Shown piece after piece: positions 4,308-45,046 of a stretch of 45,046 bases of DNA. The translations under genes were made by a program, and so were the position numbers. The notes under the pieces are model-generated. The model was not told the origin of the DNA, ran no database searches, and worked only from the letters and a program-made list of their open reading frames with translations. Position 1 is the first letter of the stretch. Each line of letters opens with the position of its first letter. The stretch is from Lachnospiraceae bacterium (GTDB taxonomy: Bacteria > Bacillota > Clostridia > Lachnospirales > Lachnospiraceae): NCBI GenBank assembly GCA_017476665.1, contig JAFUZJ010000060.1:1-45046 (forward strand). Direction: 5' to 3'.

Positions 4308-4374
4308 ACCGCCGCACCCTTTCTTTGCCGAATAACCGCACATCAATAGTATGACAAAATTCTTCCTGTCTCTT

Positions 4375-5133
4375 TCAGGAAATATTTTCCTCAAGACGAA
4401 ACGCCGGATTCTCCGGTGTGATCTCAAAGGACATCTCCTCATTTTCCACCGGATGTCGAAAGCGCAGTCGGTTGGCGCAGAGTGCTACATTTCTTACACC
4501 GAACTCCCTGCTGACCTGTTTTGACAACTCCGTGCCGTATTTGATATCTCCCAGGATTGGCAATCCGGCATGAGAAAGCTGCGCCCTGATCTGGTGAAAT
4601 CGTCCTGTATCGATCTCAACATCCAGCAAACACACCGTTACCGACCCCGACACAGAACCCGGCGCACATTTTTCATCCTGCAGCGGATGCTGCCATTTGT
4701 TTTGCACCCGGTACCTCAGACTGGCTTTCCGCGCTCCCTTTTCCTGAATCAATCCCGTTTTTTCGGAATCAGGGATCTCCTCCGCAGAGAGGATTTCTGC
4801 CCGATTGTCTTTTGTCTTATAAAGATAATCCACCAGTTTGGCCTGGCTCTCTTTCGGTTCCCCGCACACCATGGCAAGATACCGCTTCTTCAATGCATTT
4901 GACGCCAACTGCTTCACAAGCTGTGCCGATACCTTTTCCGTTTTCCCGAGAACCAGAAGTCCTTCCACAGGCTGGTCCAGGCGATGCACCAGTCCCAGAT
5001 AAGAACAGCCCAGATAATTCTTTACCTCGCTCTCCAGATCCGGCTGTCCAATCTTATTCGTCTGTGTGGCCAACCCTGCCGGCTTCTGTACCACCAGTAA
5101 AAATTCGTCTTCATAAATGATTTTTGCCTGCAT
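4375..5133 (-). CDS. RluA-family RNA pseudouridine synthase
   Basis: A 252-residue enzyme that should convert a specific uridine in rRNA or tRNA to pseudouridine. The RluA motif HRLDQPVEG (residues 50-58) carries the catalytic Asp53; KPAG and the later GRFHQIRAQLSH motif also fit. There is no S4 domain, so this is the short form. It starts nine bases after the rRNA methyltransferase stop, preceded by GAGGTGAG, and the two are very likely one operon for RNA modification. The exact target base cannot be told from sequence. Confidence 0.9.
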   Translation of the reverse strand: MQAKIIYEDEFLLVVQKPAGLATQTNKIGQPDLESEVKNYLGCSYLGLVHRLDQPVEGLLVLGKTEKVSAQLVKQLASNALKKRYLAMVCGEPKESQAKLVDYLYKTKDNRAEILSAEEIPDSEKTGLIQEKGARKASLRYRVQNKWQHPLQDEKCAPGSVSGSVTVCLLDVEIDTGRFHQIRAQLSHAGLPILGDIKYGTELSKQVSREFGVRNVALCANRLRFRHPVENEEMSFEITPENPAFRLEENIS

Positions 5134-10328: not shown

Positions 10329-11807
10329 TTACCCTTCCGGCTGCAATTCAATATATTTTCGTAAAACAAAATGCATGCAGGTACCTTGTCCCTCTTTGCT
10401 GGTCGCCCAGATGTAACCGCCGTGATCCTCAATAATCTTTTTCACAATGGAAAGTCCGATCCCACTGCCGCCCTGTGCGGAATTTCGGGATGCATCCGTA
10501 CGATAAAACCGGTCAAAAATACGCTGCAGATCCTTCTGGGCAATGCCCTTTCCGTTGTCTTCGATCTCTACCCGGATGGAATCCGTCTCGTCCAAAATAC
10601 GGATATCAATGGCTCCTTTCGGCTTATCCATGTATTTTACACTGTTGCTGATGATATTGTTGATCACCTTTTTCATCTGTTCCGGATCAATTATGACTAA
10701 TGTGTCATGTGATGTCAGATTGGAGTAATTCAGCTTAATATTCTTGGCTTCCAGATCCAGTCCAACCTCTTCAATACAATCTCCGAAATAATCCGCCACA
10801 TTAATCCGGTGAAAATTATACTGAATGCGACTGTTGTCAATACCGGAATAGGTGGTCAGTTCATTGATCAGGCGATCCATATCATTGGCCTTGTTATAAA
10901 CAGTCTTGATATATTTGTCCACCTTCTCCGGCGTGTCCGCCACGCCATCCATGATCCCTTCCACATATCCCTTGATCGCAGTGATCGGCGTCTTCAGGTC
11001 ATGGGAAATATTGGCAATCATTTCCTTATTGCGCTGGACATTCTCCTCTTTCTCCTCCTCCGACTCCTTCAGCCGAAGCCTCATGTCTTCATAATTGCGG
11101 TACAGATCACCGATCTCGCCTTTCCTATCGCCGGCCAGCATGTAATCCAGATTGCCGTCCTTGATGTTCTGCATCGCTTTATTCAGGTCAGCCACCGGCT
11201 GAAACACACTTTTTTGTATCCATTGCGTCAACATGAGACTGGTAAAGAGCAACACGACGATGATCGCTACAAACATATAGATCAGCAGATGTCTGGACAT
11301 CAACGCATAAATCCTTGTGACAATGAATACACTTCCCTTACTGCCGTCTGAGAACCGAAAATCGATCTGCTTCACATATTTTTCCAGATCATTAAAGTAA
11401 TATCCCGCACCTTCCGCCAGTTCCGCTTCTCCGTAAGCAGGCAGCTGGAAAAAAATACTTTTCGCCGCGTCCATGTTGCCGGCATAATAGATAAAACTGT
11501 CCTTCCGCACGATCAGATACGTGGATTTACGGGATATCTCGTTGTTCAGGCGTTCCAGATAAGCCTTGTCCTCCAGACGCTTGGGGTTGGTCTTGGCCTG
11601 CTCCAGCAATATATAATAGGCTCTGTCCGTGGTACCCAGAAATTCCTGTATATTTTCCGCGATCACCGGCTTCCCCATGGAAGAACCCACGCCTTGATTG
11701 GCATTTGTCAGATAAAATACAATGACCAGAAATGCCAGCACCGTGAGGATCAGCGGCAGAAGTATGATACTGAAAAAGGTAACTTGTAAACGGGTCCTGA
11801 ATTTCAT
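10329..11807 (-). CDS. Membrane sensor histidine kinase
   Basis: A 492-residue kinase pairing with the regulator at 9621. TM1 is at about 10-35, an extracytoplasmic sensor region of about 140 residues follows, then TM2, a HAMP domain with a PVADLNKAMQNIKDGNLDY segment, a HisKA domain with the phospho-acceptor in NISHDLKTP, and a HATPase domain with N, G1 and G2 boxes (GKGIAQ, GGSGIGLSIVKKI). I chose the ATG at 11807, which follows AAAGGAGATAAGG; 13 more upstream codons are open but poorly supported. The gene is divergent from luxS. The signal sensed is unknown. Confidence 0.92.
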   Translation of the reverse strand: MKFRTRLQVTFFSIILLPLILTVLAFLVIVFYLTNANQGVGSSMGKPVIAENIQEFLGTTDRAYYILLEQAKTNPKRLEDKAYLERLNNEISRKSTYLIVRKDSFIYYAGNMDAAKSIFFQLPAYGEAELAEGAGYYFNDLEKYVKQIDFRFSDGSKGSVFIVTRIYALMSRHLLIYMFVAIIVVLLFTSLMLTQWIQKSVFQPVADLNKAMQNIKDGNLDYMLAGDRKGEIGDLYRNYEDMRLRLKESEEEKEENVQRNKEMIANISHDLKTPITAIKGYVEGIMDGVADTPEKVDKYIKTVYNKANDMDRLINELTTYSGIDNSRIQYNFHRINVADYFGDCIEEVGLDLEAKNIKLNYSNLTSHDTLVIIDPEQMKKVINNIISNSVKYMDKPKGAIDIRILDETDSIRVEIEDNGKGIAQKDLQRIFDRFYRTDASRNSAQGGSGIGLSIVKKIIEDHGGYIWATSKEGQGTCMHFVLRKYIELQPEG

Positions 11808-11958
11808 GCGCCTTATCTCCTTTGAAAGATTATAACATAATGCCACCGGAATAATCCTAAAAAAAATATAAATATTTCATTGTAACGAAGTTTATGCTAT
11901 ACTGATACAAAGAACTTTTGAAATTTTCCTAGAATTTATGAGGAGGTAAGGAAATTCC

Positions 11959-12438
11959 ATGGAGAAAATTGCAAGCTTTACAGTTGACCATATCCGGCTG
12001 CAGCCCGGTGTCTATGTATCCCGCAGGGACACGATTGGAAGCGAGATGATCACCACTTTTGACCTGCGCATGACCAGCCCAAATGACGAGCCTGTCATGA
12101 ATACCGCAGAAATCCACACGATTGAGCATCTGGGTGCAACTTTTCTGCGAAATCATCCTGTTTATAAATATAAAACCCTTTATTTCGGACCCATGGGATG
12201 CCGCACCGGATTTTATTTACTTTTAGCGGGAGATCACACCTCGGCGGACATCGTACCCCTGATGGTCGAGATGTATGAATTTATCCGTGATTATGAGGGT
12301 GAGGTTCCGGGCGCGTCCCCCCATGACTGCGGCAACTATCTGGATATGAATTTAAATATGGCAAAATACCTTGCCCGGAAGTATCTGGATGAAGTGCTGT
12401 ATGACATCAAGTGGGAGCAGCTGAATTACCCGGAGTGA
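11959..12438 (+). CDS. luxS: S-ribosylhomocysteine lyase (AI-2 synthase)
   Basis: A 159-residue LuxS. It cleaves S-ribosylhomocysteine to homocysteine and DPD, the precursor of autoinducer-2. The zinc ligands are visible as His53 and His57 in HTIEH (with Glu56) and Cys124 in PHDCGNY; Cys81 in GPMGCRTG is the catalytic cysteine. A GAGGAGG ribosome site lies upstream. It is followed by a DUF4304 gene and by mtnN, which makes its substrate, so the locus handles the activated methyl cycle. A possible -10 (TATACT) is near 11898, but the -35 is poor. Confidence 0.97.
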   Translation: MEKIASFTVDHIRLQPGVYVSRRDTIGSEMITTFDLRMTSPNDEPVMNTAEIHTIEHLGATFLRNHPVYKYKTLYFGPMGCRTGFYLLLAGDHTSADIVPLMVEMYEFIRDYEGEVPGASPHDCGNYLDMNLNMAKYLARKYLDEVLYDIKWEQLNYPE

Positions 12439-32173: not shown

Positions 32174-34420
32174 TTATTCTCCGCCAAGATCTGCCGCATC
32201 ATAATGCACTTCCACATTTTTCTTGTCATAGCTGCGGTAAAAGTCCGCCATAATACGGTTTATGATCTGCCTGGTCTCCGTCTCATCCATATTTTCAAGC
32301 AGAACTACATACTGCACATTGGTATATTTTGTCGCCGCGCCCACATTTCTGGTGGCGCCGGTGATTGCCCGCTCCAGAAATCTCATGATCTCCTCATGTG
32401 CCTCCAGTGACACTTCGCCGATATCCCGCAGCGTAAACAGTACAATCCGTACCTTTCCGTTGTTCTTCTGCAAAATGTCGTTCACAAAATCATAAATCTT
32501 CACAAACCCGGAATCCATGCCCACAGGCCTACCGTCCGCATCCAGTTCCGCCTCGTTCCGGTTCTTGAAAAGATCCACCAGACGCTCCAGATCCGAAGAA
32601 TTTGCCACAGCCACATCATCGTCATCCCCCAGCTTATCCAGCCTGTGACAGAAATAATTGTTGCCGCCGTACTGCTTTGCCACAAAGAGCGCCTTGCTGG
32701 CATTTTCGTAGGAAACCATTACCTTATCCTTCTCCGTAGCAATCTGCGTGATACCTATGGAGACAGACAGCCTGGAAATGGAAGAATCCCTTAATGTCAT
32801 AACCTTAATCTCTTCCAGAAACTTCCTTGCTACGTCCTCCGCGTCCTCGGCGCTGTCCACCTGCGGCATATATACCACAAATTCATCCGCTCCGAACCGG
32901 GACACGATCTGATCCTCTTTGATCCGCTTGATCTTATCCGACAAGATCCGCAGGTACTTATCTCCCACCATAAAACCTTCCGACTCATTGATCTTACGGA
33001 AATGATCAATGTCAAAGATAAACAGGGAACCTGTGCCATACTTGCCAATCTGATCCTGCATCATATTGACGCCCTGCCCGCGGCTTAATGTGCCTGTCAA
33101 CTCGTCTGCCTGGGCTTCCTCCAGCACGGTCTCCTCCGCTTTGTCAATGACACGGGTCAGAATCTGTGTCGTCTGCTTCACCTCTGCGGAATCGTTATCC
33201 AAATTGAAGTTTGGCAGGCGCTTCTCCTCCACCAACCGGATCATCGCCTCGCAGGCAGCCGGATCAAACTGGGTTCCTTTGCCCTTCTTCAACTCCGCCA
33301 ACACTTTCTCCTCCGGCAGATGTCTCCTGTAAATGCGGTTGGAAGTCATGGCGTCATAGGCATCCGCCACACCGATGATGCGAGCAATCAGCGGGATCTC
33401 CTCGCCCTTCAACCCCTCCGGATAGCCCTTTCCGTCATAGCGCTCGTGGTGATACTTCGCACCCACATCCAGATCATTTATCATCGTGATATCCTTCAAA
33501 ATCTCGCCGCCTGTGACGGTGTGATCCTTCATCAACTGATATTCCTCATTGCTGAGCTTCCCCGGCTTATTCAGCACGGAATCCGGCACACCAATCTTAC
33601 CAATATCATGCAGTAATCCGATAAAACGGATGTCCTCCACCTTCTGTTCATCCAGCCCCATCTCCTTTGCAATGGCCACGGAATATTCCGCCACACGGCG
33701 GCTGTGACCTCTTGTGTATTCATCCTTGGCATCGATGGTGTTTGCAATGGTCATGATCGTCTGCATGGTCATCAGGCGCATCTGTTCATTTTTCACCAGC
33801 AGCTCATCGGAGTACTTATTCAGTTCGCCGTTCATGGCCTCCAGCTCCTCGGCCTGCTGATACAGTTCCTCCTTCTGATCTGCCAGATCTTTGGTGTAAG
33901 CGACATTCGCCTTATAAATATCATCGTAAATGCGGGTCGCCAGATAGGCGGCCAGGATGCAAAGGAAAAGCAGCGCCAGCTGGATCTCCGTCTCTTTCGT
34001 GAGAACAGCCGCAATCTCTCCTCTCCGGTAACGCAGAAAAATATCAATGAAATTCACGATCGTGGCAATAATGCCTGTTCCCAGCACCAGTTTGGGATCG
34101 TGATAGAGCACGATAAAAGCCGTGAGCGGCAATATGTACGTGAAGACCAGCGTGGTGGAACCGGTCACCATCACAAAAATATACATGAGAAAATAACCCA
34201 CCACCACATAATAACGCAGATCCTGACTCTCTTTATTCCTGAAATAGAAGAACGCCACCGCCGCCATCGGCAGGATCGTGACCGCTGAAAAAACGATCAG
34301 ATAAGGAACCGTCCTTGCTCCTTTGATCACTTCTCCCAGATAACTGACGAACAGGATCAGAACGATCAGCGTCCATCCCAATATCAAATTTCGATTAATT
34401 CTTTTGATCTGCGTATCCAT
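32174..34420 (-). CDS. Membrane HD-GYP / GGDEF signalling protein
   Basis: A 748-residue protein. Six or so N-terminal helices (about 12-165) are followed by a coiled coil (170-215) and an HD-GYP phosphodiesterase domain (about 225-400) with HD271-272 and DGKGYPEG (329-336) intact. A GGDEF-type domain (about 435-590) reads GADEF (510-514). A third region (about 630-745) looks like a decayed cyclase: the signature position reads KYTNVQYVVLLE. It could break c-di-GMP, with the cyclase parts as regulators or weak enzymes. GGGGTGG lies five bases before the ATG. Confidence 0.88.
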   Translation of the reverse strand: MDTQIKRINRNLILGWTLIVLILFVSYLGEVIKGARTVPYLIVFSAVTILPMAAVAFFYFRNKESQDLRYYVVVGYFLMYIFVMVTGSTTLVFTYILPLTAFIVLYHDPKLVLGTGIIATIVNFIDIFLRYRRGEIAAVLTKETEIQLALLFLCILAAYLATRIYDDIYKANVAYTKDLADQKEELYQQAEELEAMNGELNKYSDELLVKNEQMRLMTMQTIMTIANTIDAKDEYTRGHSRRVAEYSVAIAKEMGLDEQKVEDIRFIGLLHDIGKIGVPDSVLNKPGKLSNEEYQLMKDHTVTGGEILKDITMINDLDVGAKYHHERYDGKGYPEGLKGEEIPLIARIIGVADAYDAMTSNRIYRRHLPEEKVLAELKKGKGTQFDPAACEAMIRLVEEKRLPNFNLDNDSAEVKQTTQILTRVIDKAEETVLEEAQADELTGTLSRGQGVNMMQDQIGKYGTGSLFIFDIDHFRKINESEGFMVGDKYLRILSDKIKRIKEDQIVSRFGADEFVVYMPQVDSAEDAEDVARKFLEEIKVMTLRDSSISRLSVSIGITQIATEKDKVMVSYENASKALFVAKQYGGNNYFCHRLDKLGDDDDVAVANSSDLERLVDLFKNRNEAELDADGRPVGMDSGFVKIYDFVNDILQKNNGKVRIVLFTLRDIGEVSLEAHEEIMRFLERAITGATRNVGAATKYTNVQYVVLLENMDETETRQIINRIMADFYRSYDKKNVEVHYDAADLGGE

Positions 34421-34465
34421 ATAACCACCCCAATTGCCTCATTTTGACTTTGTTAAAATTATATC

Positions 34466-34502
34466 TTGCGTCATTCTATATTATAAATGAATTTGCGTCA
34501 TT
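34466..34502. repeat. Direct repeat before the HD-GYP gene
   Basis: TTGCGTCATT occurs twice, at 34466-34475 and 34493-34502, 27 bases apart. Both lie in the 107-base gap between the degV-family stop and the HD-GYP start. This could be a paired regulator site. Confidence 0.4.
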
Positions 34503-34527
34503 TGGCAATGTTCTATTAGCGCAATCA

Positions 34528-35358
34528 CTATAACGCGATCACAACACCGCCCGGATTCTCGTAGGTGGTGGAGATACCGCCGGCATTTATGATCTTCACA
34601 TCCGTAAAGCCAAACCGCTCTGTCAGAACCGCCGCAATCTTTGCACACAGCTCCCGGCTGGCGCATTGCGTGATCCGCACCTTCCGGGACGGATCCAGAT
34701 GCTTCTTCTCAATATGCCACAGCAGGCGGTTTACCGCACGGTTCATGCCGATCGCCTGATCGATCTGCTTGATATCACCGTCATCCCCTATCAAAACAGG
34801 TTTCACATTCATCGTGGTCGCAACCAATGCCTTAATGCCCTTCAACCGCCCGTTTTTCTTGAAGGTTTCCAGATCATCCAGCACAAAAATGGTAAACATC
34901 TCATCCCGAAACGCCTCTGCCGCTTGCACTACCTCCTCGAAGGAACAGCCGGAATCCGCCAATTCCACGATCTTCTCGTACAACAGATGCTGTGCGGCCG
35001 CTGCGCTCTTGGAATCAAACACATGGATGCGCACACCCTCGTGCTCCTCCTCAAACATCTCCTTCGCCACCATGGCACTGTTATAGACGCCGCTCAGCTT
35101 AGAGGAAAGCGTAATCACGTAGTTGTCACAGTTTTCGTCATACGCGCGGTAAAAATCGTCCGGAGACGGGCAGGCCGACCTCGGATATCCCGGATCACTC
35201 TTGATCATCTCGATCCACTCCTCCTGCTTTCTATGGCCGTCATCCCGATATTCCACCCCGCCGATGATGATCGACATAGGCACCCGCGCAATGTTCCCCC
35301 TGCGCATCTCCAGCTTGGAAAAATCACAACAACTGTCGCCGATAATCTTGTACGCCAT
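34528..35358 (-). CDS. DegV-family fatty-acid-binding protein
   Basis: A 276-residue DegV protein. Family patterns include IIGDSCCDF at the start, PMSIIIGGVEYRDD, SSKLSGVYNSAMVAKEMF and FDSKSAAAAQHLL. Members bind fatty acids and in some bacteria serve as FakB in fatty-acid kinase systems; no FakA partner is nearby. It is the last core gene before the accessory island. Confidence 0.92.
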   Translation of the reverse strand: MAYKIIGDSCCDFSKLEMRRGNIARVPMSIIIGGVEYRDDGHRKQEEWIEMIKSDPGYPRSACPSPDDFYRAYDENCDNYVITLSSKLSGVYNSAMVAKEMFEEEHEGVRIHVFDSKSAAAAQHLLYEKIVELADSGCSFEEVVQAAEAFRDEMFTIFVLDDLETFKKNGRLKGIKALVATTMNVKPVLIGDDGDIKQIDQAIGMNRAVNRLLWHIEKKHLDPSRKVRITQCASRELCAKIAAVLTERFGFTDVKIINAGGISTTYENPGGVVIAL

Positions 35359-35580
35359 TCCTGAAATCCCCTTTCGTCATCTCTTTCCTTTTTACCTTAT
35401 CATCTGCTCATATTATGCCACAAATAAAAGTTTTTTCAAGATTTGCAGCACATATTTCAGTACTGCCCAGATAAAAAACAGCACCCATGCCGAGTGCTGT
35501 TCCATTCATTGCTTTTTTAAGTAATCACTCCGGCAATATCGCGTTAATATAATATTGCCTTAAGTTTCATTCTAACATTT
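35359..35580. other. Gap at the core/island border
   Basis: No gene. It holds the terminator at 35473-35501 and a second perfect stem GGCAATAT/ATATTGCC (35532-35559). The border between conserved genes and the defence-type island is somewhere here; no attachment repeat was found. Confidence 0.5.
35473..35501 (-). terminator. Terminator after the AAA_14 ATPase gene
   Basis: On the minus strand an eight-bp perfect stem AACAGCAC/GTGCTGTT with a nine-base loop, followed by TTTTTTAT. It is 80 bases past the stop of the ATPase at 35581. Confidence 0.75.
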
Positions 35581-36876
35581 TTACTCTGCCGCAAGTACCC
35601 ACTCTTGTGCCAGATATAAGGGAACATTCGTCATCCATTCCTGCTCTCTGTATCCTGACATGGAAAATCTGCAAGGCTTAAGGGTATTATTGCTCTCATA
35701 TACAGCCCGCAGGCTTTTTGATTTCAGATTTTCTTCCGCTTTTACCTCTATAGGGTAGAGCTCATTCTTCTGCACAAGAAAATCAATTTCCAGCGGTGAA
35801 GCTTCCTTGGAGTAATAGTACAGTTTCAAATCCAATGCGATCAACTCCTGTGCAATGAACTGTTCCGTAAATGCTCCTTTATATTCCGAAAAATAATTCT
35901 CGCCGGTAATCACTTCCTTCGCTGTCACATCCGACATGGCTCCCAAAAGCCCAAGATCGGACAGAAACACTTTAAATGCAGAAATGTCTTCGTAAAATTT
36001 TAACGGACGCTTCACGGAATTTACCCTCACAACTTTATGGATCAACCCTGCACTAATAAGCCACTGTAGCGCGTTTTCAAAATCTTTTGCCCGTGCTCCT
36101 TTCTTAACAGCTCCGTAAATAAATTTCTTGTTTTCCTTTGCAAGCTGGGACGGTATGGAATTCCACACCATTGTTACTTTAGGCAGATCAACCGTAGGAA
36201 CATGTTTTGAAAAATCCTTTTCATATTCAGCCAGGATTCTTTTTTGGATCTGACGCACTTCATTCAGATCCTGCGACCTGACATAGTTCTTTACTACTTC
36301 GGGCATTCCGCCCACATAATAATACTGACGCAGTAGATCCGTAAATTTTACAGAGAGAGCCGAAAGCTCCTCCCAACGATGTTCACACATCTGACGGACA
36401 ATCGTTTCATTTCCGGAAGCCACCAGAAATTCCTGAAATGTCATAGGATACATCTTTATTTCATCCACTTTTCCGACCGGATATCCTGTTCCGGTGTGCA
36501 GACTTACTCCCAACATACTTCCCGCAGCTATGACATGATATTCCGGTGCATCTTCATAAAAGTATTTCAAAGCGGTTATCCCCTGTGGAGCTTCCTGAAT
36601 CTCATCCAGCACAATCAATGTTTCTTCCGGATTAATTGTTTCGGAAGTAAGCGATGAAAATACCCGTAAAAGACGTTTCACATCATAATCAAAGAAAATA
36701 GTCTTCATTTCCGCTATTTTGTCACAGTTGACATATGCTATATTCTTATATTCTCTGGAACCGAATTCTTTGATGATCCACGTCTTGCCAACCTGTCTGG
36801 CACCGTCTATGATCAATGGTTTTCTGTCAGCTTTTTGTTTCCATACCAAAAGGCGATCATATATATCTCTATGCAT
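35581..36876 (-). CDS. AAA_14 / DUF4143 ATPase
   Basis: A 431-residue ATPase with an intact Walker A, GARQVGKT (25-32), Walker B LIVLDEIQEAP (87-97), and a C-terminal DUF4143 domain ending in a PD-(D/E)XK-like strand (LEIDFLVQKNELYPIEVKAE). This is the common ATP-dependent DNA-binding-type family found in many copies in gut bacteria and archaea. Its function is unproven, though mobile or defence regions often hold it. Compare the lysine-less cousin at 30986. Confidence 0.85.
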   Translation of the reverse strand: MHRDIYDRLLVWKQKADRKPLIIDGARQVGKTWIIKEFGSREYKNIAYVNCDKIAEMKTIFFDYDVKRLLRVFSSLTSETINPEETLIVLDEIQEAPQGITALKYFYEDAPEYHVIAAGSMLGVSLHTGTGYPVGKVDEIKMYPMTFQEFLVASGNETIVRQMCEHRWEELSALSVKFTDLLRQYYYVGGMPEVVKNYVRSQDLNEVRQIQKRILAEYEKDFSKHVPTVDLPKVTMVWNSIPSQLAKENKKFIYGAVKKGARAKDFENALQWLISAGLIHKVVRVNSVKRPLKFYEDISAFKVFLSDLGLLGAMSDVTAKEVITGENYFSEYKGAFTEQFIAQELIALDLKLYYYSKEASPLEIDFLVQKNELYPIEVKAEENLKSKSLRAVYESNNTLKPCRFSMSGYREQEWMTNVPLYLAQEWVLAAE

Positions 36877-36975
36877 CTAAAATCCTCCCCTGTATGCTAT
36901 TTTTAACTTTTACATAGTAATTATACAAAAAAATGAACGAAAATTCAAATATGCATCACAAAAAAATGAACGAAT

Positions 36976-37206
36976 TTAGGTCGCGCAAAATAAAAAACCC
37001 GCAAACTGCTCTGTCAAATAGCTGAATACCATTTCATTTTCCACAATGAATATCGCTTTTCCCTCTCCATATGCCCGCTTTGCTTTTTTGAGCGCAGGCA
37101 TGACCAGGATTCCCGGCTCCCCCATCGCGCAATAGCCCTCAAACGCAGGGTGCAGACCATCCTCCATCTCAAGATGTACGCCAAAGGTAATGACCGTGTT
37201 GGACAT
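36976..37206 (-). pseudogene. Fragment of a JetD-type (TIGR02679/DUF2399) Wadjet gene
   Basis: A 76-residue piece with GLHPAFEGYCAMGEPGILV followed by IFIVENEMVFSYLTEQFAG and an abrupt end. The sequence resembles the interior of TIGR02679/DUF2399 proteins, the nuclease-like JetD subunit of type II Wadjet plasmid-defence systems, usually several hundred residues long. It begins right after the JetA-like fragment on the same strand. The family call is from memory and should be checked by profile search. Confidence 0.5.
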
Positions 37207-37207
37207 T

Positions 37208-37432
37208 TCATCCGGCAGAATATGATATTGCAGTAAACTCTCTCAGATAGTCCTGATAATTCTGATTCAGCCGCTTAAAATCCTCCTGCAGATTATTCCA
37301 CCATTCATTAATCTCCTTCGATGCCGCCGCATCCATTTCATCTGCCTGCTCCAAGCTGTTCTCCAGCCGAATAAACAGGTTTGTAGACAAACTGCCGGAT
37401 TCCAAAAACAGATTCTCCAATCTCACCGTCAA
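37208..37432 (-). pseudogene. Fragment of a JetA-type (DUF2397) Wadjet gene
   Basis: A 74-residue piece: a helical stretch with INEWWNNLQEDFKRLNQNYQ, then DYLREF. That signature is familiar from DUF2397/TIGR02677 proteins (JetA of type II Wadjet). A full gene would be several times longer, and JetB and the SMC-like JetC are missing between this piece and the JetD-like piece. A large deletion seems to have joined them. Confidence 0.5.
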
Positions 37433-38548
37433 TCTCTTTTCGTGATAATACCATCCTGTGTTTTCGCCAGCTTTAATATCATTTCAGGAAAAGCTATCCT
37501 ATCAATCCCGGTCTGTCTCACATATTGAATACTTTGATTGTTCTCCTTATATACCTTCTGCGAAAGTAAATATGATCTTGATCTGCCATTCCCGACGCCT
37601 TCCACAAGACCGTCTTCAATCAGATTTTCTATGGCACCTCTTAACTTTCCTTCTGCAAAATGTGTCTTCTCGGCAATCTGATCCAATGTAAGTCTTTTCT
37701 CGTTTTTAAGCAACGACAAGATCATAAGCGCATAAATAGACAAAGATCTTCCTAATCTGTTTTGTTCATCTGCTATAAACCTGGTAAATCTGTCATCCGC
37801 CTTAGCCCTCTGGATAAATAGTTTTACATTTGTACTGGTTGTTTCCGAATAATCCGGCCAGGGTCTTCCATATATGATAGAGCCTTCATAAATTCGATCT
37901 ATACCACGCCCCGTTTTTTCCGCAAGTCCAATTCTTTTTAATGCATCTGCCAGCGCAGGATTCTTCCCATGCGGCTCTACTGTAAGCAGATTATCTAATG
38001 TAACGCCATCAATGAAACCTCCAGGGCTGCTGATTGTCATTCCCTCATCATCAATCAGCACCCTCACCGTCCCAAGCATCGTGTAATCTCTATGACAAAA
38101 CGCATTCACCAGTCCCTCTCTGAATGCCGCTTTGTCAAATTCCGGAATAGAAGCCCTAAATAAACCATATTCAACTTCATGTTCCGGATTCCATGCTTCA
38201 GAATAGGTTTCAAATTTTTACCTTTGTTCCTTCCAAAACCTGAAAAGATGCCTTAACAGTCGGCATTAACTCAGCGATACGATTTTCTTTTCCGAGAATA
38301 AGCATTCCTGTAACCGTCGGATAAATCTTCCCGTCTATCTCTGTCGTAAAGCGCAGCGCTTTATCCAGCTCATCATCAGATAAACTAAGCAGATTCTTTT
38401 CCCCTCCCGGTCTCGTCTGTATAATGTTCCGTAATCTGATCCTCTGATTTGGATCAAAATCTTCGACGGCAGCACCGGCAAGTGGACCTGCTGAGAAATC
38501 TAATAAAGCCAGTTCCGAAAGTCTGGTCATGATCTCATAGGAATACAT
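37429..38548 (-). pseudogene. Broken AlbA_2/ATPase-family (RecG-like) gene
   Basis: Two consecutive frames belong to one ancestral gene. The first (38548 to 38210) starts within the family sequence (EIMTRLSELALLDFSAGPL), so the N-terminal AlbA_2 domain is gone. It ends at VLEGTKVKI. The second frame continues as FETYSEAWNPEHEVEYG, AFREGLVNAFCHRDY and GLAEKTGRGIDRIYE (the GHKL-like C-terminal ATPase region) to a winged helix. About 13-15 residues are missing at the joint near 38213-38220, with a frameshift. The end (GIITKRD) abuts the JetA-like fragment. It is decayed, not functional. Confidence 0.75.
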
Positions 38549-38636
38549 TTTTTGCCTTCTTCTCGCTATAATAAATACTATGAAACGGCAATTTTCTTAC
38601 TTTTTGCCAAATTATAGTTTTTAATGGGGTGATACT

Positions 38637-39377
38637 TTGAATATAGCAGACACACTATCCAATCTTCCACAAGATCAGATTTTTAACAAATCCCGTTTTC
38701 GTGAAGCGGTTCATACGGTAGATCCCGACTGCACAGAAAGCACCATCAATTGGATGCTGGTCACCATGCGCAAACAAGGTCTCCTCGCATCGGCAGGCAC
38801 CGGGAAATATTATTGTCTCCCTAGCGAATCTGACATAAAGAAAGACTATCGGTATCCGCATTCCCCGGAATATCAGGAAATTGAGCAAACCGTTACAGAC
38901 ACATATCCTCTTGTAAACTTTCAGATGTGGGAATTGATCCAGATGAATGATTTTGTCAATCATCAGATTGCAAAAAATGTAATTTTTATAGAAGTAGAAT
39001 CCATGTTGGTCGATACAGTATATGAAATGCTTCATGAAAAGTATCCATACGCCATGATCCAACCGAATGCAGATACTTTCTACAAGCAACGAGCCCCGGA
39101 AACCGATATTATCGTTCAGAAACTACTTACAGAAGCACCTACGCCAAATGACAGGCATTCCAGCCCTCTGGAAAAACTTCTCGTAGATCTTCTATCCAAA
39201 AAACTATCAGGAAACTTGATTGAAAGAAGTGAATACCCGCGCATATATGAAGACATCTTCCGAAAATACCTGATTAATGAGACCAGAATGTTTCGATATG
39301 CAAAGCGCCGGCATCTATACGATACCTTACTTTCTTTCATACAAACACAGACCAGCATAAAACTAATGACCATCTGA
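38637..39377 (+). CDS. AbiEi-like type IV antitoxin
   Basis: A 246-residue protein with an N-terminal winged-helix-like region (about 15-60, NKSRFREAVHTVDPDCTEST) and a longer C-terminal domain, as in AbiEi-type antitoxins of the AbiE phage-abortive system. It starts with TTG at 38637 after GGGGTGA. The toxin-like gene begins 13 bases downstream with a strong AAGGAG. In AbiE the antitoxin represses transcription and counteracts the nucleotidyltransferase. The intact antitoxin beside a broken toxin suggests remaining regulation, or a recent loss. Confidence 0.7.
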   Translation: MNIADTLSNLPQDQIFNKSRFREAVHTVDPDCTESTINWMLVTMRKQGLLASAGTGKYYCLPSESDIKKDYRYPHSPEYQEIEQTVTDTYPLVNFQMWELIQMNDFVNHQIAKNVIFIEVESMLVDTVYEMLHEKYPYAMIQPNADTFYKQRAPETDIIVQKLLTEAPTPNDRHSSPLEKLLVDLLSKKLSGNLIERSEYPRIYEDIFRKYLINETRMFRYAKRRHLYDTLLSFIQTQTSIKLMTI

Positions 39378-39390
39378 CAAGGAGACACAT

Positions 39391-40430
39391 ATGATTTCAA
39401 AAGATACCTACTCCATAGAGTATGTTAACAGCCTGCGAGAAAAATACAAAAAGGATCCCTCTCTTCTGGAGCGTGTCCCGTTTGCTTTCGGACTGCTCGA
39501 AGCGATTGCCCGTGTTGGTATGCCATTCACATTTAAAGGCGGCACCTCGTTGATGTTGATACACGACCATCCGCTCCGACTCTCCACAGACATCAATATC
39601 CTTGTGGATCCGGGTACCGATGTTGATAAATACATAACCGAAGCTTCAAAGCTCTTCCCATTTAAGTCGTATGAGGAAGACCGACGCATCGGCAAAAACG
39701 ACATTGAAAACGCCATTTCAAATTTGTGTATGACTCACCCTTAAGAAATGACGATTTCTACATACTTCTGGACATCGTCTTTGCAGAGAGTCCCTACATC
39801 TCTACCCAAACCTGTGAGATAATGAATGACCTTCTGCTTACTGAAGGAGTTCCGATCACCGTCAAGATTCCTTCACCGGAATGTATCCTCGGCGATAAAC
39901 TTACTGCATTTGCACCGCACACCACAGGCGTTCCTTTTGGAATTGACAAAGAGCTTGAGATTATCAAGCAACTGTTTGATGTTGCCACGCTTTCTGAGAA
40001 GATAGACAATTATCAGAATCTGATATCAACCTATGACCGAGCAGTCATTGATGAAATCGGTTATCGCGATATAACCGCAACCCGTGATGATGTCCTCCGT
40101 GACACCATACGGTCTTGTGCCTGCATTATTGGAAAAGGCATCTATGATCCGGATGAATTTCCACTGTTCATCAAAGGAATCCGTTCTATCGGTGGGCATA
40201 TTCTGTCAATGAAATATGGCGTTCCACTTGCTGCTGAGCAGGCCAGCCGTGTGATGTATCTGGCCTCCTGTATGCTCACCGGGCAGACATTTACTCCTAT
40301 CAAAAACCCTGAAACATATCTTCAAGCCAATATCGGCAAGAGCAAATATAAAAAGCTCTCATATATGAGAGGCCAGAGTGCTGAAGCGTTTGCATATATC
40401 GTTGAATCGGTTCGAATGATTGGAGAATAG
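39391..40430 (+). pseudogene. AbiEii-like nucleotidyltransferase toxin, frameshifted
   Basis: The first frame (39391-39744) carries the nucleotidyltransferase start FKGGTSLMLIHDHPLRLSTD; the second (39726-40430) carries the rest of an AbiEii/PF08843-like protein. The reading frame changes near 39707-39710, a run of four A residues. Adding one A gives DIEKRHFKFVYDSPLRNDD, which reads smoothly into the second part. The total of about 345 residues is normal for the family. Either the toxin is inactive or the assembly lost a base. Confidence 0.75.
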
Positions 40431-40495
40431 ACCCATGTAAATCTTAAAAGTAGGAGGTCAACCCAAAAAATCCGTCTGAAGAGGAAAATGAAAAA

Positions 40496-40528
40496 GCGGA
40501 AACCCTTGATTTTATAAGGATTTCCACG
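40496..40528 (-). terminator. Original tRNA-Gly terminator, displaced by the element
   Basis: On the minus strand, GGAAATCCTT and AAGGGTTTCC arms (one mismatch) are followed by GCTTTTTC. It lies only about 10 bases beyond the left attachment copy. Before the insertion it would have stood directly downstream of the tRNA-Gly gene. Confidence 0.65.
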
Positions 40529-40538
40529 CCTAACTAGG

Positions 40539-40560
40539 AGAGCGGGTGATGGGAATCGAA
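40539..40560. repeat. attL: 22-bp copy of the tRNA-Gly 3' end
   Basis: These 22 bases are identical to 44777-44798, which hold the last 20 bases of tRNA-Gly(TCC) and two bases beyond. Outside the repeat the two sites differ at once. The neighbouring GGGAATCG (40551-40558) also has an inverted partner CGATTCCC at 40610-40617. Confidence 0.9.
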
Positions 40561-40618
40561 TGACCATGAACACTCGAAAATCCAGTAAGAAAGGGGGTTG
40601 CGTAGCTGTCCGATTCCC

Positions 40619-40637
40619 TTGTACCACTTTTGTACCA
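40619..40637 (+). promoter_or_regulatory. Left arm-type integrase sites (2 x TTGTACCA)
   Basis: TTGTACCA occurs at 40619-40626 and 40630-40637, 11 bp apart, 59 bases inside attL. The same pair with the same spacing lies inside attR. This pattern fits arm sites bound by the integrase N-terminal domain. Confidence 0.6.
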
Positions 40638-40699
40638 ACAATATCTTTTAACATATGGTAGGGACAAACCTCTCTGCATCCTCTGTATTAAGTAGCATT

Positions 40700-40727
40700 A
40701 GTGGCAGACGAAGTAAAGCCTGCCACT
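40700..40727. repeat. Hairpin downstream of the lipoprotein gene
   Basis: AGTGGCAG (40700-40707) pairs perfectly with CTGCCACT (40720-40727) around a 12-base loop. It lies 70 bases beyond the lipoprotein stop on the minus strand. It lacks a U-run; it could end or stabilise the mRNA. Confidence 0.45.
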
Positions 40728-40797
40728 GTTACGCTTAATATTACAGATGCCAAAATTGTACATATAATTCTTTTAAATCGTTTCATAATACCCTTTC

Positions 40798-41916
40798 TTA
40801 AGGGATGGTTACACCAAATATCTCACCTGTTAACTCTTTGGAACTGGGGTTTACAGAAAATACAACTGCACCATCACCAACATAGTCTATACACTGAAAA
40901 TAGTCACCGTCAAGAGTAATAAGATAATTGTATTCTACCTCAATATATTCCTCTGGTGCCGGAATTGTAGCGTCATAAAATGCAATATATTTATAATTAA
41001 ACGCATTATATTTTACCGCTGTCATATTGATTGCTGCCTTAAGATATGGAGAAAGATCCTCAGTAATATTTAGGAGATCTGCAGTTTCTGTATCTGCTAA
41101 TACATAAGCATCAGAAATATGAGCAGTAGCTCTCATTCTCTCTGGTAACTCACTCTCATCAACATACTTCGGCATCAAGAACTCCTCAACATAGGCATCA
41201 CCATCGGAATCACTGAAATCGGGGGCTGCACTATGTACTCCCACAGCGGGATCTGTTTCTAGTACTTCAATTTTGGGTCCATAATAAGGATACAGTTCTT
41301 CGTATTCATCATGATAGTCGGTTAAGTTGTGCTTATCCCCAAAATCCTTGATATCGTAACCACATACCTCCCTACCCAACAAAAACTCGATTCCATCACC
41401 ATTTTCATCCGATACAAACTTGCCTGGCAACCATAACAACCCGTACCCCTTTTTTTCAAATACATACGCGCCAAGTTTTATTTCTTCACCATTATCATCT
41501 GTTCCCAAAAATTTATACACACCTGTCTCTAGTTCATCTGGTTTATCATCCATAAAATAATATGATATATCGTTAAAATATAGTTCAACGTCATCTATAT
41601 CCATAACCTTTGTTTTTTCATCATCGTAAAATAGAATCCTTTCATCCCAGTATTTCTCCAAAATGTCTGTAGTAAGTGGAGATAAATCATCAAGTTCAGA
41701 TAAATTTAGGTTTGCATAATTAAGAACATAGTACAAGATCACTGCTGTTTCTCCATCAGCTACAATTTCTTCTTCCTTATCCTTACTATCCGACTCCTCC
41801 TGTCTTGATCTGCTTCTTTCCCGTTCATTTACCGCAGGCTCCGTTTCCTTACCGCCGCAACCGCTAAGTGTAACAGCCATTGCTAATATTGCCAAATATA
41901 TACTAATTCTTTTCAT
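40798..41916 (-). CDS. Element-borne acidic lipoprotein
   Basis: A 372-residue lipoprotein with a clear signal (MKRISIYLAILAMAVTLSGC, Cys20 lipidated). A charged Arg/Ser/Glu/Lys linker (about 28-52) is followed by a highly acidic, Tyr- and Asp-rich extracellular part with no repeat or known domain I can name. It follows the membrane-anchored gene by 15 bases and is probably translated from the same mRNA, starting at the promoter 42506-42534. Surface location and repressor control suggest a role at the cell envelope, for example exclusion or interference, but this is speculation. Confidence 0.75.
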   Translation of the reverse strand: MKRISIYLAILAMAVTLSGCGGKETEPAVNERERSRSRQEESDSKDKEEEIVADGETAVILYYVLNYANLNLSELDDLSPLTTDILEKYWDERILFYDDEKTKVMDIDDVELYFNDISYYFMDDKPDELETGVYKFLGTDDNGEEIKLGAYVFEKKGYGLLWLPGKFVSDENGDGIEFLLGREVCGYDIKDFGDKHNLTDYHDEYEELYPYYGPKIEVLETDPAVGVHSAAPDFSDSDGDAYVEEFLMPKYVDESELPERMRATAHISDAYVLADTETADLLNITEDLSPYLKAAINMTAVKYNAFNYKYIAFYDATIPAPEEYIEVEYNYLITLDGDYFQCIDYVGDGAVVFSVNPSSKELTGEIFGVTIP

Positions 41917-41931
41917 CGTTCTTCCTCCAAT

Positions 41932-42453
41932 TTACTTTATCTTGTACCCTAAATCTTCTGCAATTTGCGATATCCTTCCGGAGCCACCAATGTATTTACG
42001 AGCCTCTCCATACAAGACTGTGTTTCCCTTTCTGACAGCACATACAAAACCGTCGCCGGATTTATAAGACACGCTAAAAGACGATTTTGAGCCTGTTAAA
42101 TTAGAGTTTGAATCTGATTTATACTGCTCATACTTTTCGCTCATAGCTTCCTGCGCCTTTTCTTTACTTGCAAAAACACAGTAGTCTATCACTCCGCCCC
42201 CGTCATTGCCGGACCATGACTCTGTTGATATGCGGATTACTTTTTGAGGAGACCCCATAGGAACACCTACATTAGACATTTCTGTTATTTTGTAATACTT
42301 GCTGTACCCCCTTACTACAGCTTCTATTTCCTCATAAGACAATTCTTTTACCGAACTCTCGCCCAGTCCTCCGCTCCCAATTAGTATTCCCACAAAAAGA
42401 ATACATGCCACTACACATACCGCAACCACACCGATTACTACTTTCTTTTTCAT
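41932..42453 (-). CDS. Element-borne membrane-anchored secreted protein
   Basis: A 173-residue protein with one N-terminal helix (about 4-27, KKVVIGVVAVCVVACILFVG) and an extracytoplasmic domain of about 140 residues. The domain contains GGGVIDYCVFASKEKAQEAM and a Ser/Asn-rich stretch, and ends in GRISQIAEDLGYKIK. ATG 42453 follows AAAGGAG; 16 upstream in-frame codons lack such a site and the promoter runs close to them. I do not recognise the family. It forms an operon with the lipoprotein gene and is divergent from the XRE gene. Confidence 0.7.
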   Translation of the reverse strand: MKKKVVIGVVAVCVVACILFVGILIGSGGLGESSVKELSYEEIEAVVRGYSKYYKITEMSNVGVPMGSPQKVIRISTESWSGNDGGGVIDYCVFASKEKAQEAMSEKYEQYKSDSNSNLTGSKSSFSVSYKSGDGFVCAVRKGNTVLYGEARKYIGGSGRISQIAEDLGYKIK

Positions 42454-42505
42454 ACATTTCTCCTTTGTTAAATATTTGTCCGTCATATGGCGGACATTCA
42501 AGGGG

Positions 42506-42534
42506 ATTGTACATCATTTGTTGTACACTGTCAA
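42506..42534 (-). promoter_or_regulatory. Promoter overlapped by TTGTACA operator pair
   Basis: On the minus strand, TTGACA (42529-42534), 17 bases, TACAAT (42506-42511). TTGTACA occurs at 42507-42513 and 42521-42527, so one box covers the -10 and the other lies in the spacer. The TGTACA cores are palindromic, 14 bp apart. The XRE protein is the obvious candidate repressor. Confidence 0.65.
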
Positions 42535-42585
42535 GGAATGTAATGCATAACAATATTTAATAAAAGCGTTGAAATGGGTGATGTA

Positions 42586-42822
42586 ATGGGATATTATCCT
42601 CGTTTGAGAGATTTGCGTGAAGATAAAGACTTATCTATCAGAAAATTAGCGGACATACTTCATATGCAGAGAACAACATATCATAACTATGAGACAGGAA
42701 AACGGGAACTGCCTTTTGAATTGGCAATTACACTTGCTAAGTTTTATAATGTTTCTCTGGATTATATTGGCGGTATAACGAATGATTCCACTCCGCCAAC
42801 CAAAGATAAACGCAAAATATAG
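42586..42822 (+). CDS. XRE-family repressor of the element
   Basis: A 78-residue one-domain HTH protein: RLRDLREDKDLSIRKLADIL forms the first helices and HMQRTTYHNYETGKRELP the recognition region, followed by ITLAKFYNVSLDYIGG. ATG 42586 follows GGGTGATG; an ATG four codons earlier lacks a good site. It is divergent from the exported-protein operon, with the operator-like boxes between them. A terminator-type hairpin follows at 42971-43027. It probably controls the cargo and perhaps integrase. Confidence 0.85.
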   Translation: MGYYPRLRDLREDKDLSIRKLADILHMQRTTYHNYETGKRELPFELAITLAKFYNVSLDYIGGITNDSTPPTKDKRKI

Positions 42823-42935
42823 ATCAATATTTTCAAACGGACAATACCGTTTTAAAAGACATATCCTCATAGGTAAAACGGTACACTAATTTTAGAAATG
42901 GTATCTACCCTATTAAAAACACATGGATAAGTTTA

Positions 42936-43129
42936 TTTGTAAGGTTTTCTTCTGTTTTTTTGAAAAATTTTGTAAGGACTAATATGTAGGCACTTTTGTC
43001 GCAAAAAAGTCCTTACATATTTTTTTGCCCAATTTTAGGGCAAAAATCGTATGTTTAAATAAAAATTTTTTCTGAAAAGGCTTCTTAAGGGGTATTTTTT
43101 GCAATTTTTGTAAGGTGTTTTTTGTAAGG
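42936..43129. repeat. TTTGTAAGG boxes upstream of integrase
   Basis: TTTGTAAGG occurs at 42936, 42969, 43107 and 43121, with an inverted CCTTACA at 43011. All fall in the AT-rich 655-base gap between the repressor and integrase. They may be protein-binding sites or iteron-like repeats; no replication protein is present. Confidence 0.4.
42971..43027 (+). terminator. Hairpin with U-run after the repressor gene
   Basis: A ten-bp perfect stem, TGTAAGGACT with AGTCCTTACA, and a 27-base loop are followed by TATTTTTTT. A second nine-bp stem (TTTTTGCCC/GGGCAAAAA, 43022-43046) directly follows and can act on the other strand. Confidence 0.55.
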
Positions 43130-43390
43130 AAAAAGTCATAATTCGCTTGAAATTTCATAGATTTTAATGTGAAGATTTTAGAATTTGATGTCATATCATT
43201 TTATTTTGTATACAAGTTTAGAAATTAGTTTGCCTCATTTTAGAAATTCATGTCATAAATCTTAGAAAATATACATATCTGAAATTTTTAAAAAAATAAC
43301 TCAAGTTTAAAACAACCTTTCCTTATTGGAAAATCTTCTATAGCCTGCACAAATATAATCGAAAGGAGACCTGCTTTTGGGGCGCAAATG

Positions 43391-43453
43391 CCTAATCGCC
43401 TAAACGCCAATCACCGACACACCTAATTACCTAAAATCCTAAGTACCTAGCAA
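43391..43453 (+). repeat. Degenerate 8-bp CCTAAnnn tandem repeat before integrase
   Basis: About eight units with a period of eight bases: CCTAATCG, CCTAAACG, CCAATCA, CCGACACA, CCTAATTA, CCTAAAAT, CCTAAGTA, CCTAGCAA. One unit has slipped by a base. The units lie in the integrase leader, 25-90 bases before its start. No function is known. Confidence 0.6.
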
Positions 43454-43458
43454 CAGTC

Positions 43459-43481
43459 CCATTGCATAAATACTGCAATGG
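43459..43481 (+). promoter_or_regulatory. Hairpin enclosing the integrase start codon
   Basis: CCATTGCA (43459-43466) pairs with TGCAATGG (43474-43481), whose ATG is the integrase start (43478). No ribosome site is close; the nearest, AAAGGAG, is about 110 bases upstream. Translation is probably restrained. Confidence 0.5.
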
Positions 43482-44704
43482 AGCACACGAATATTGAAGA
43501 TCTGATACATCTATTTCAAAATTTATCCCAATATGATATGATGTCTTTGGACAGCTACGCAATAAATGATATGCGTAATAGCTTAGAGGAACAAATCGAA
43601 AATAAATTAAAGGGGGTACACAACAACAAAATCTGTCAGATTTCAGACGGACGGTATAAAACACATAATCCACAGCTGATTAAAAAGACCAAGCTGGAAC
43701 TGCTGATTGCTTTGTATGAATATTATTTTCATCAATCTCCCCTGCCGAAGCGGAAAAAGAGCATTAAAACGGTTTATCCGCAATGGTTGGAAACTTATAA
43801 ATCATTGATCGAGCAGGGACACAGATCGGTCGGCAGTCTGCGACATTATGAGAGCGATTATAACAGATATCTGCATGGGATTGAACTGGAAACAAGGGAT
43901 ATTACCAAAATAACTTTCCAAGACATAAAAAAGTTTTATGCGGAAATCACGGCAAATCAGGCAATCACCAGAAAATCCTTGAATAACGTCAAGACCTTAA
44001 TCAATCAGATTTTTGACTACGCCAGAGATCAGAATATACCCGTTATCAATACACATGATATCCGCACTATAGACCTCTGTTGCAAAGAAACGGATAATTA
44101 TGACAAGGTGTACAGTGACGAGGAACGGTTAAAGGTCTTAGATGCTTGTAAACGCCAAAATAACGTATATTCCCGTTGCATAGGGTTGATGTTCTGTCTA
44201 TGCGTCAGAATCGGCGAAATAAAGGCTTTAAAGTGGTCTGACGTGGATTTTGAGAACAAAAGGGTATTTATTCACCGTTCTATGGTACAAATCAAGGAAA
44301 ACGGCATTTACAAGGACAAATGTGTCGACCGGACAAAGGGAAAGAAAAAAGAGTGCAACCGCTATGAGAGTTTATCGGCGCTGGCAATTTCTTTTCTGCG
44401 GGAACAGCGCAAAGAAACCGCATTTTGCGAGTATGTCTTTATGACTAACGAACACCCTTTACAGACAAATATGGTAAACAAGAAATTAAAGCGTATTTGC
44501 GAGCAGGCGGGTGTGGAATATCTTTCCTCGCATAAAATCCGTTTCTGGGCTGTAACCGCCATGTATAACCAGAATATTGCCGATTCGGTTATCCAGTACA
44601 CAGCCGGTCATTCCGACCCTGCAACCACAAATCATTATAAACGTCTTGCCAAAATTCAGCCTAAAATTGAAAGTGATATGTGGGATAAAATGTTTGGAAT
44701 GTAG
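43478..44704 (+). CDS. int: Tyrosine-type site-specific integrase
   Basis: A 408-residue recombinase. An N-terminal arm/SAM-like region (about 95-185) precedes the catalytic domain. The catalytic residues are intact: Arg in CVRIGEIKALKW, Lys in the beta-hairpin region, HKIR (H-x-x-R), GHSD and the tyrosine in TTNHYKRL. It cuts and rejoins DNA at the tRNA-Gly site. It reads toward the tRNA 3' end, stopping 75 bases short, the usual place for a tRNA-targeting integrase. Start at ATG 43478 as the first in-frame ATG after a stop. It has no visible excisionase partner. Confidence 0.93.
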   Translation: MEHTNIEDLIHLFQNLSQYDMMSLDSYAINDMRNSLEEQIENKLKGVHNNKICQISDGRYKTHNPQLIKKTKLELLIALYEYYFHQSPLPKRKKSIKTVYPQWLETYKSLIEQGHRSVGSLRHYESDYNRYLHGIELETRDITKITFQDIKKFYAEITANQAITRKSLNNVKTLINQIFDYARDQNIPVINTHDIRTIDLCCKETDNYDKVYSDEERLKVLDACKRQNNVYSRCIGLMFCLCVRIGEIKALKWSDVDFENKRVFIHRSMVQIKENGIYKDKCVDRTKGKKKECNRYESLSALAISFLREQRKETAFCEYVFMTNEHPLQTNMVNKKLKRICEQAGVEYLSSHKIRFWAVTAMYNQNIADSVIQYTAGHSDPATTNHYKRLAKIQPKIESDMWDKMFGM

Positions 44705-44716
44705 TATTTATGCGGA

Positions 44717-44735
44717 TTGTACCACATTTGTACCA
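44717..44735 (+). promoter_or_regulatory. Right arm-type integrase sites (2 x TTGTACCA)
   Basis: TTGTACCA occurs at 44717-44724 and 44728-44735, again 11 bp apart and in the same orientation as the left pair, 41 bases inside attR. Confidence 0.6.
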
Positions 44736-44776
44736 CTTGAAAAACGGTAGAAAGTGCGTATTTAGGGAAAAAAATA

Positions 44777-44798
44777 AGAGCGGGTGATGGGAATCGAA
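44777..44798. repeat. attR: 22-bp repeat inside the tRNA-Gly 3' end
   Basis: Identical to 40539-40560. It covers the discriminator, the acceptor 3' strand and part of the T-arm of tRNA-Gly(TCC), so insertion regenerates a complete tRNA. Confidence 0.9.
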
Positions 44799-44850
44799 CC
44801 CACGTGTCCAGCTTGGAAGGCTGGCGTACTAGCCATTGTACTACACCCGC
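44779..44850 (-). tRNA. tRNA-Gly (anticodon TCC)
   Basis: 72 bases. The seven-bp acceptor GCGGGTG/CACCCGC, the anticodon loop CTTCCAA, the T-loop TTCGATT and the U discriminator typical of glycine tRNAs are all present. CCA is not encoded. It is the integration site of the element, and its sequence remains complete. Confidence 0.95.
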
Positions 44851-44855
44851 ATGAG

Positions 44856-44927
<72 letters not shown>

Positions 44928-44964
44928 ATATTCTATATAAAGTTTGATCACTTTTGTATATAAA

Positions 44965-44991
44965 GCAGTCGGTCAAAAGCAGACCGCCTGC
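44965..44991 (-). terminator. Hairpin between tRNA-Phe and tRNA-Gly
   Basis: GCAGGCGGTC and GACCGACTGC arms (one mismatch) around a seven-base loop start five bases after the tRNA-Phe 3' end. The following T-run is poor (CTTTATA), so it may be a processing or partial termination signal. Confidence 0.5.
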
Positions 44992-44995
44992 GAAA

Positions 44996-45046
44996 TGCCC
45001 AGAACCGGAATCGAACCAGTGACACGAGGATTTTCAGTCCTCTGCT
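44996..45046 (-). tRNA. tRNA-Phe (anticodon GAA), partial
   Basis: The 3' part of a tRNA runs off the window: anticodon loop CTGAAAA, variable loop, T-arm with TTCGATT, acceptor 3' strand TCTGGGC and A discriminator. Anticodon GAA reads Phe. Confidence 0.9.

Follow-up and report, generated by a model that had tools for sequence, protein, structure and literature searches.

A small putative integrase element at tRNA-Gly(TCC) in a Lachnospiraceae genome and its candidate XRE-regulated pair of exported proteins

From the sequence of a 45,046-nucleotide stretch of a Lachnospiraceae genome (GenBank assembly GCA_017476665.1, contig JAFUZJ010000060.1, referred to here in its full length as the window), combined with comparisons to related genomes, viral contigs and plasmids, we propose that the 4.24 kb between two exact copies of the 22-bp repeat AGAGCGGGTGATGGGAATCGAA very likely represent a small, non-autonomous tyrosine-integrase element, which lies in tandem beside an older remnant at tRNA-Gly(TCC) and carries as cargo an XRE-regulated cassette of two exported proteins. 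The integrase would use the 22-bp core to insert a circular form of the unit at the 3' end of tRNA-Gly(TCC), the tRNA end being rebuilt upon integration, and repeats close to the ends of the unit would serve as arm sites for integration as well as excision. Arrival of the unit beside an older remnant with defence genes, also at this tRNA, would then have created the tandem array. The XRE protein is predicted to repress the exported pair, and probably also itself, by binding to two palindromes of the divergent promoter region, and the exported proteins would act at the cell surface. As no relaxase was found, spread of the unit would need the conjugation or packaging machinery of a helper, or natural uptake.

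The unit and its tandem position

The right core copy (44777-44798) forms the 3' end of an intact tRNA-Gly(TCC) gene (44778-44850, minus strand; ARAGORN and Rfam), the presumed target, and the left copy (40539-40560) is an exact match, both at the coordinates that the initial annotation had given. No repeat of this kind is expected from 100 shuffles (≤3 mismatches), and a 20-bp part of the core occurs at just these two sites in the assembly (3.64 Mb, 72 contigs, ≤2 mismatches). Arm-type repeats, so called for their position, are present close to both ends, TTGTACCACTTTTGTACCA on the left (40619-40637) and TTGTACCACATTTGTACCA on the right (44717-44735), and together with the intact core copies they suggest a complete unit. 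The G+C content falls from 0.468 in 1-35562 to 0.419 in 35563-40538 and 0.371 in the unit.

Four convincing genes are located between the cores, i.e. those of the integrase and the XRE protein on the plus strand and those of a membrane-anchored protein and a lipoprotein on the minus strand, in agreement with the initial description of two exported proteins carried by a small integrase-bearing unit. The integrase (43478-44704, plus strand, 408 aa; Phage_integrase, E 1.1e-23) adjoins the tRNA and is complete. R244, K287, H352, R355 and H378 are invariant across seven aligned integrases; by the known motifs of the family, we take these to be catalytic residues and Y387 to be the catalytic tyrosine. 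Weak relatives (~25% identity) occur in streptococcal satellite phages, and in one genome of the genus, G152, the same tRNA holds a 35.7-kb core-bounded insertion that is prophage-like by gene layout only, its families having been checked for the integrase alone. Both would suit a decayed satellite or prophage remnant that has been reduced to an integrase and its cargo. However, profile searches with the four element proteins matched no relaxase, replication or phage structural family, and the two intact cores and arm repeats point to a complete unit, making such decay improbable.

The same searches bear out the earlier claim that mobilisation and replication genes are absent, and distinguish the four proteins from the content of a canonical integrative and mobilizable element (IME), in which a relaxase is expected. 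It is possible that the 655-bp intergenic region between the XRE and integrase genes (42823-43477) is a replication origin or an origin of transfer (oriT). The motif TTTGTAAGG has five sites in the window where 0.48 are expected, four of them lying on one strand of this region in a span of 194 bp (42936, 42969, 43107 and 43121), and excerpts of PMC5704250 put relaxase-less mobilizable islands on record. That the unit is such an island, with the region acting as oriT or replication origin for a helper, is nevertheless unlikely in our estimate, since across the 138 genus genomes the part containing TTTGTAAGG was matched just twice, over 32 and 37 bp. We also note two short arrays of 8-bp units like GCCTAATC at 43390-43449.

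The initial annotation had predicted an empty site in which 40538 directly joins 44799. The joined sequence (40450-40538 with 44777-44860) indeed aligns unbroken in two relatives, G069 (142 of 164 columns identical) and G158 (138 of 163). In both, this junction-like stretch, which includes a terminator-like hairpin in the flank beside the left core (40496-40527, minus strand, i.e. that of the tRNA operon), sits directly downstream of an integrase gene, in G069 overlapping the last 26 bp of the open reading frame (ORF). Owing to this location, the left flank resembles the terminus of an older element that has lost its integrase. The arrangement hence resembles a unit in tandem beside an older remnant, with no pristine chromosome as its neighbour, and the idea of a complete unit in the tRNA is retained for the integrase unit and its intact repeats, with the left flank reassigned to another element. 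In G079 (RGIG4995) only the right end is kept, with 93% identity over 44687-45044, including the last integrase codons and the arm repeat, and a GGDEF-EAL gene lies beyond it.

Three observations count against the proposed arrangement. Both junction-matching relatives are occupied by another integrase element, so that neither provides the empty site as it was envisaged. The closest relative read, G111 (UBA3821), has a filled site as well, with a different 7.2-kb unit between two cores; it is 92% identical to the window over 33074-35563 and 98% over the tRNA array (44765-45046), with everything from 35563 to 44765 variable. Finally, an excision-factor gene was not recognised in the unit.

The XRE regulator, its operator-like palindromes and the exported pair

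The regulator (42586-42822, plus strand, 78 aa) is a single-domain XRE protein, as initially annotated (HTH_3, E 1e-13), although its start has been moved and is probably at 42586, as in close homologues. On the opposite strand, the membrane-anchored exported protein (41932-42453, minus strand, 173 aa) probably starts with the ATG at 42453, which is preceded by AAAGGAG, instead of the TTG at 42501 chosen earlier, and is followed by the lipoprotein (40798-41916, minus strand, 372 aa, lipobox LSGC). Two operator-like palindromes, O1 GTCCGTCATATGGCGGAC (42478-42495) and O2 GTACATCATTTGTTGTAC (42509-42526), are found 31 bp apart in the divergent region. O2 is overlapped by a promoter-like TTGACA-17-TACAAT of the exported pair (42506-42534, minus strand), a match to consensus only (11/12) and of a class roughly as common here as in shuffles (18 versus 15.1, sd 4.3).

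A DNA search using the XRE gene and its surroundings returned matches of 72-78% in G005, G099, G138, G141 and G173, plus weaker ones, and two palindromes centred on CATATG or CATTTG are conserved in the aligned regions upstream of XRE. The operator motif has 26 single matches (≤2 mismatches) in 914,590 bases, a sample that is not random but was chosen in part because of XRE; it contains six motif pairs with starts separated by 18-300 bp, all of which have a spacing of exactly 31 bp and lie in front of this XRE gene. These six loci comprise the window, G005, G099, G141, the faecal record MT839650 and an IMG/VR contig, the last being the only match to the operator-pair pattern in the viral contigs. 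While the XRE proteins are 72-93% identical, the divergent side of each locus begins with a different gene, the first convincing one there coding for a membrane protein, a secreted protein or a lipoprotein in every case: the membrane protein and the lipoprotein in the window, a Sel1-repeat lipoprotein in G005, a protein with two transmembrane segments and a zinc-ribbon-like end followed by a lipoprotein in G141, transmembrane proteins in G099, a lipoprotein ending at the edge of the record in MT839650, and, in the IMG/VR contig, a Big_2-domain protein that is hydrophobic over an N-terminal stretch. Only short, weak mutual matches were obtained among these partners (25-28 residues, best E 0.01). 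The recurrence of the same XRE and operators at six loci with exported partners makes it seem, as judged from sequence, that the XRE belongs with the exported pair as a regulated cassette.

This amends the initial annotation, which listed an XRE repressor with the cargo. On a rival reading, the XRE is the element's own repressor and would control the integrase to maintain the element, as in phages and integrative and conjugative elements, with the exported pair as incidental cargo; in line with this, the gene is placed between the exported pair and the integrase, reads in the direction of the latter, and the right arm repeat (44719-44736) resembles O2 at three mismatches. However, this repeat is the only operator-like site in 40501-44799 besides O1 and O2 (≤3 mismatches), with none upstream of the integrase, and in four of the five other operator loci (G005, G099, G141 and MT839650) no ORF within ~4.5 kb of XRE and operators, or up to the record end, fits the integrase model. 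We accordingly assign a low probability to such a maintenance role. As a separate matter, cross-talk between the XRE and the element end through the O2-like arm repeat is possible.

Several points weigh against the assignment of XRE to a cassette with the exported pair. Five of the six operator loci, the window included, were found via XRE similarity, and one via the operator pattern itself. The XRE copies of G138 and G173, 85-86% identical, show no operator pair at ≤2 mismatches and were assigned no exported partner on the divergent side. Across 14 XRE homologues that have a divergent partner, nine have membrane or exported partners, compared to 45% of background ORFs, which is not significant (p 0.12) in a test that used our own membrane/export rule and dropped 8 of 30 loci for giving no called XRE ORF.

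Beyond the window, XRE, O1 and O2 could constitute a mobile output-swapping switch, in which a near-constant repressor and palindromes at 31-bp spacing are combined with interchangeable surface or secreted proteins and travel among chromosomal loci and integrase elements of gut bacteria, Lachnospiraceae included. We advance this as a tentative but serious possibility. Should it hold, the window element may be one capture of the switch, and the IMG/VR contig with its two integrases another. The comparison exposes a conserved repressor-operator layout with outputs that vary by locus, all six of them surface or secreted proteins; if the switch is real, operator pairs would predict regulated surface proteins in gut bacteria where homologues for annotation are missing. 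In the IMG/VR contig (2588253903_000004, a predicted viral contig), the XRE cassette lies between two integrase-like genes, at 3332-4609 (Tn916 type) and 11183-12412. Two faecal 'Bacteriophage sp.' records of ~4 kb, MT839650, which has XRE and its upstream region in common with the window, and MT839696, whose integrase is ~30% identical to that of the window, were considered as free circles of the element and rejected, as both are linear records.

The initial annotation had called for profile searches and structure prediction of both exported proteins; these were run and yielded no family, no convincing homologue and no usable structure. For the lipoprotein, matches in the 138 genomes of the genus are almost all limited to the N-terminal 40-100 residues, the strongest, in G116, covering residues 1-99 (E 2.5e-6); 99 relatives gave the protein itself and one N-terminal match, and no relatives were detected in genome contigs, viral contigs or plasmids. 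For the membrane protein, 392 genomes of the order gave itself and three weak matches, those inspected being unlike orthologues, 99 relatives gave itself and one match, and viral contigs and plasmids none. A sequence search of the PDB returned no match at E 1 for either. As there are no convincing homologues, the structure predictions are unusable, with a mean confidence (pLDDT) of 31.8 for the lipoprotein, which is useless, and 57.5 for the membrane protein, whose best Foldseek match has E 0.63.

A possible function for the pair, for which the initial annotation had considered surface exclusion, phage interference or host colonisation, would be exclusion of phages or conjugative elements by an Ltp-like conversion lipoprotein, which would explain why the element is retained. 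The prototype of a superinfection-exclusion family, Ltp of the temperate phage TP-J34, is a lipoprotein according to excerpts of PMC3952083, and the adjoining remnant contains AbiE-type defence genes, so that defence cargo has accumulated at this tRNA. Resemblance to known exclusion families is nevertheless slight, as no PADLOC model is matched by either protein at E 0.001 and PHROG offers just weak matches with exclusion proteins (E 0.05 and 0.32). Moreover, among four lipoproteins of further elements at this tRNA, Pfam recognises an LCP domain in one and CAP plus SH3 domains in another, and gives the remaining two no family above its cut-off. Exclusion is thus somewhat unlikely, albeit the least so of the functions and origins weighed here.

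The neighbouring remnant and use of the site across the genus

The older remnant to the left, outside the unit, is a variable stretch (35563-40538) with the PDC-S01 defence candidate (35581-36876), a split ATPase (37429-38548), AbiEi (38637-39377, E 5e-92) and AbiEii in two frames (39391-40430, with 39391-39744 and 39726-40430 covering profile positions 1-108 and 113-343), the latter split reflecting either decay or an assembly error. To the right, tRNA-Gly(TCC) is accompanied by tRNA-Gly(GCC) (44855-44927, minus strand; ARAGORN), and besides tRNAs the Rfam scan gave two matches, both far below threshold.

The tRNA-Gly core was found in 105 of the 138 genus genomes. More than 1 kb downstream of the tRNA could be read in 80 site records, equal to 79 distinct sites since that of G011 appears twice (L073 and L086). 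A family integrase lies within 1 kb of the tRNA at 11 of the 79, a count that includes the window and a fragment in G111, leaves out the more divergent integrase beside the tRNA in G152, and stems from an enriched sample, with 14 records (5 occupied) mostly picked for having two cores and a further 17 (2 occupied) of which two were picked because an integrase had already been seen. Among less selected sites, not picked for a second core, the frequency is 3 of 48. The window integrase is 21-27% identical to six other integrases at the same tRNA site, and the integrases of the site are spread over several separate tree groups, three of them well supported, indicating that different integrases have settled on the same tRNA.

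A core duplication with a complete integrase by the tRNA-side core was identified in G003 (4.5 kb), G031 (7.7 kb), G148 (5.5 kb), G163 (9.3 kb) and G158 (8.9 and 17.1 kb in tandem), with Mob proteins encoded at the G158 site. The element of G031 (L063, 1963-9647) contains an FtsK/HerA-like ATPase, a Rep protein (Rep_OBD and helicase) and a lipoprotein. Core-bounded stretches lacking a complete family integrase were detected in G011, G018, G035, G143 and G153, with integrase fragments directly beyond the far core in G018 (L084) and G143. Judged by sequence starts, the multi-gene contents of the integrase-less stretches in G018, G011, G143 and G153 (L084-L087 and L092) look alike between genomes and consist of membrane proteins and others, including some lipoproteins. 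In G035 (L071, 4848-8624), two related lipoprotein genes lie beside tRNA-Gly with a core copy between them and no integrase seen, which looks like a duplicated core-bounded lipoprotein unit.

Lipoproteins account for 7 of 51 ORFs in eight core-bounded units versus 24 of 467 in the background (Fisher p 0.024), and four of the eight have a lipoprotein gene in first position at the far end (p 4e-4). We regard this as a hint only of lipoprotein enrichment in elements at the tRNA, as the pattern was noticed post hoc, lipoboxes were called by a rule of our own making, and four occupied sites and one two-core site are among the 85 background loci. Taken together, the tRNA-Gly site lets one Lachnospiraceae genus acquire and stack small islands, defence genes and lipoproteins among them.

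Comparison with known systems

A literature search, with most subscription journals outside its range, retrieved no description of such a tRNA-Gly hot spot or XRE layout. Site-specific accretion and cis-mobilizable elements (CIMEs), the latter having cores at both ends and no integrase, are treated in the excerpts of PMC5704250. The remnant at 35563-40538 is like the near end of a CIME in ending in a core copy and having no integrase, but differs in that no second, far copy was detected in 35001-40500 at ≤7 mismatches of 22; CIME status is therefore not proven.

As a lipoprotein borne by a mobile element, the window lipoprotein is comparable to Ltp of TP-J34, as portrayed in the part of PMC3952083 consulted, and differs from lipoproteins of that exclusion type in having no match to an exclusion family beyond the weak PHROG ones. 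The closest parallels are the relaxase-less IMEs covered by the PMC5704250 excerpts, with which the unit shares an integrase, direct repeats that keep the target gene intact, growth in tandem with older elements in decay and, presumably, transfer by other machinery. In these excerpts, relaxase-less tyrosine-integrase islands measure 18-33 kb, and very small islands (1.7-2.0 kb) use a DDE transposase, whereas the window unit spans 4.24 kb, carries an XRE-linked exported pair and has a conjectural oriT. In conclusion, the element itself is of an ordinary kind, and the recurring repressor switch is its less ordinary part.

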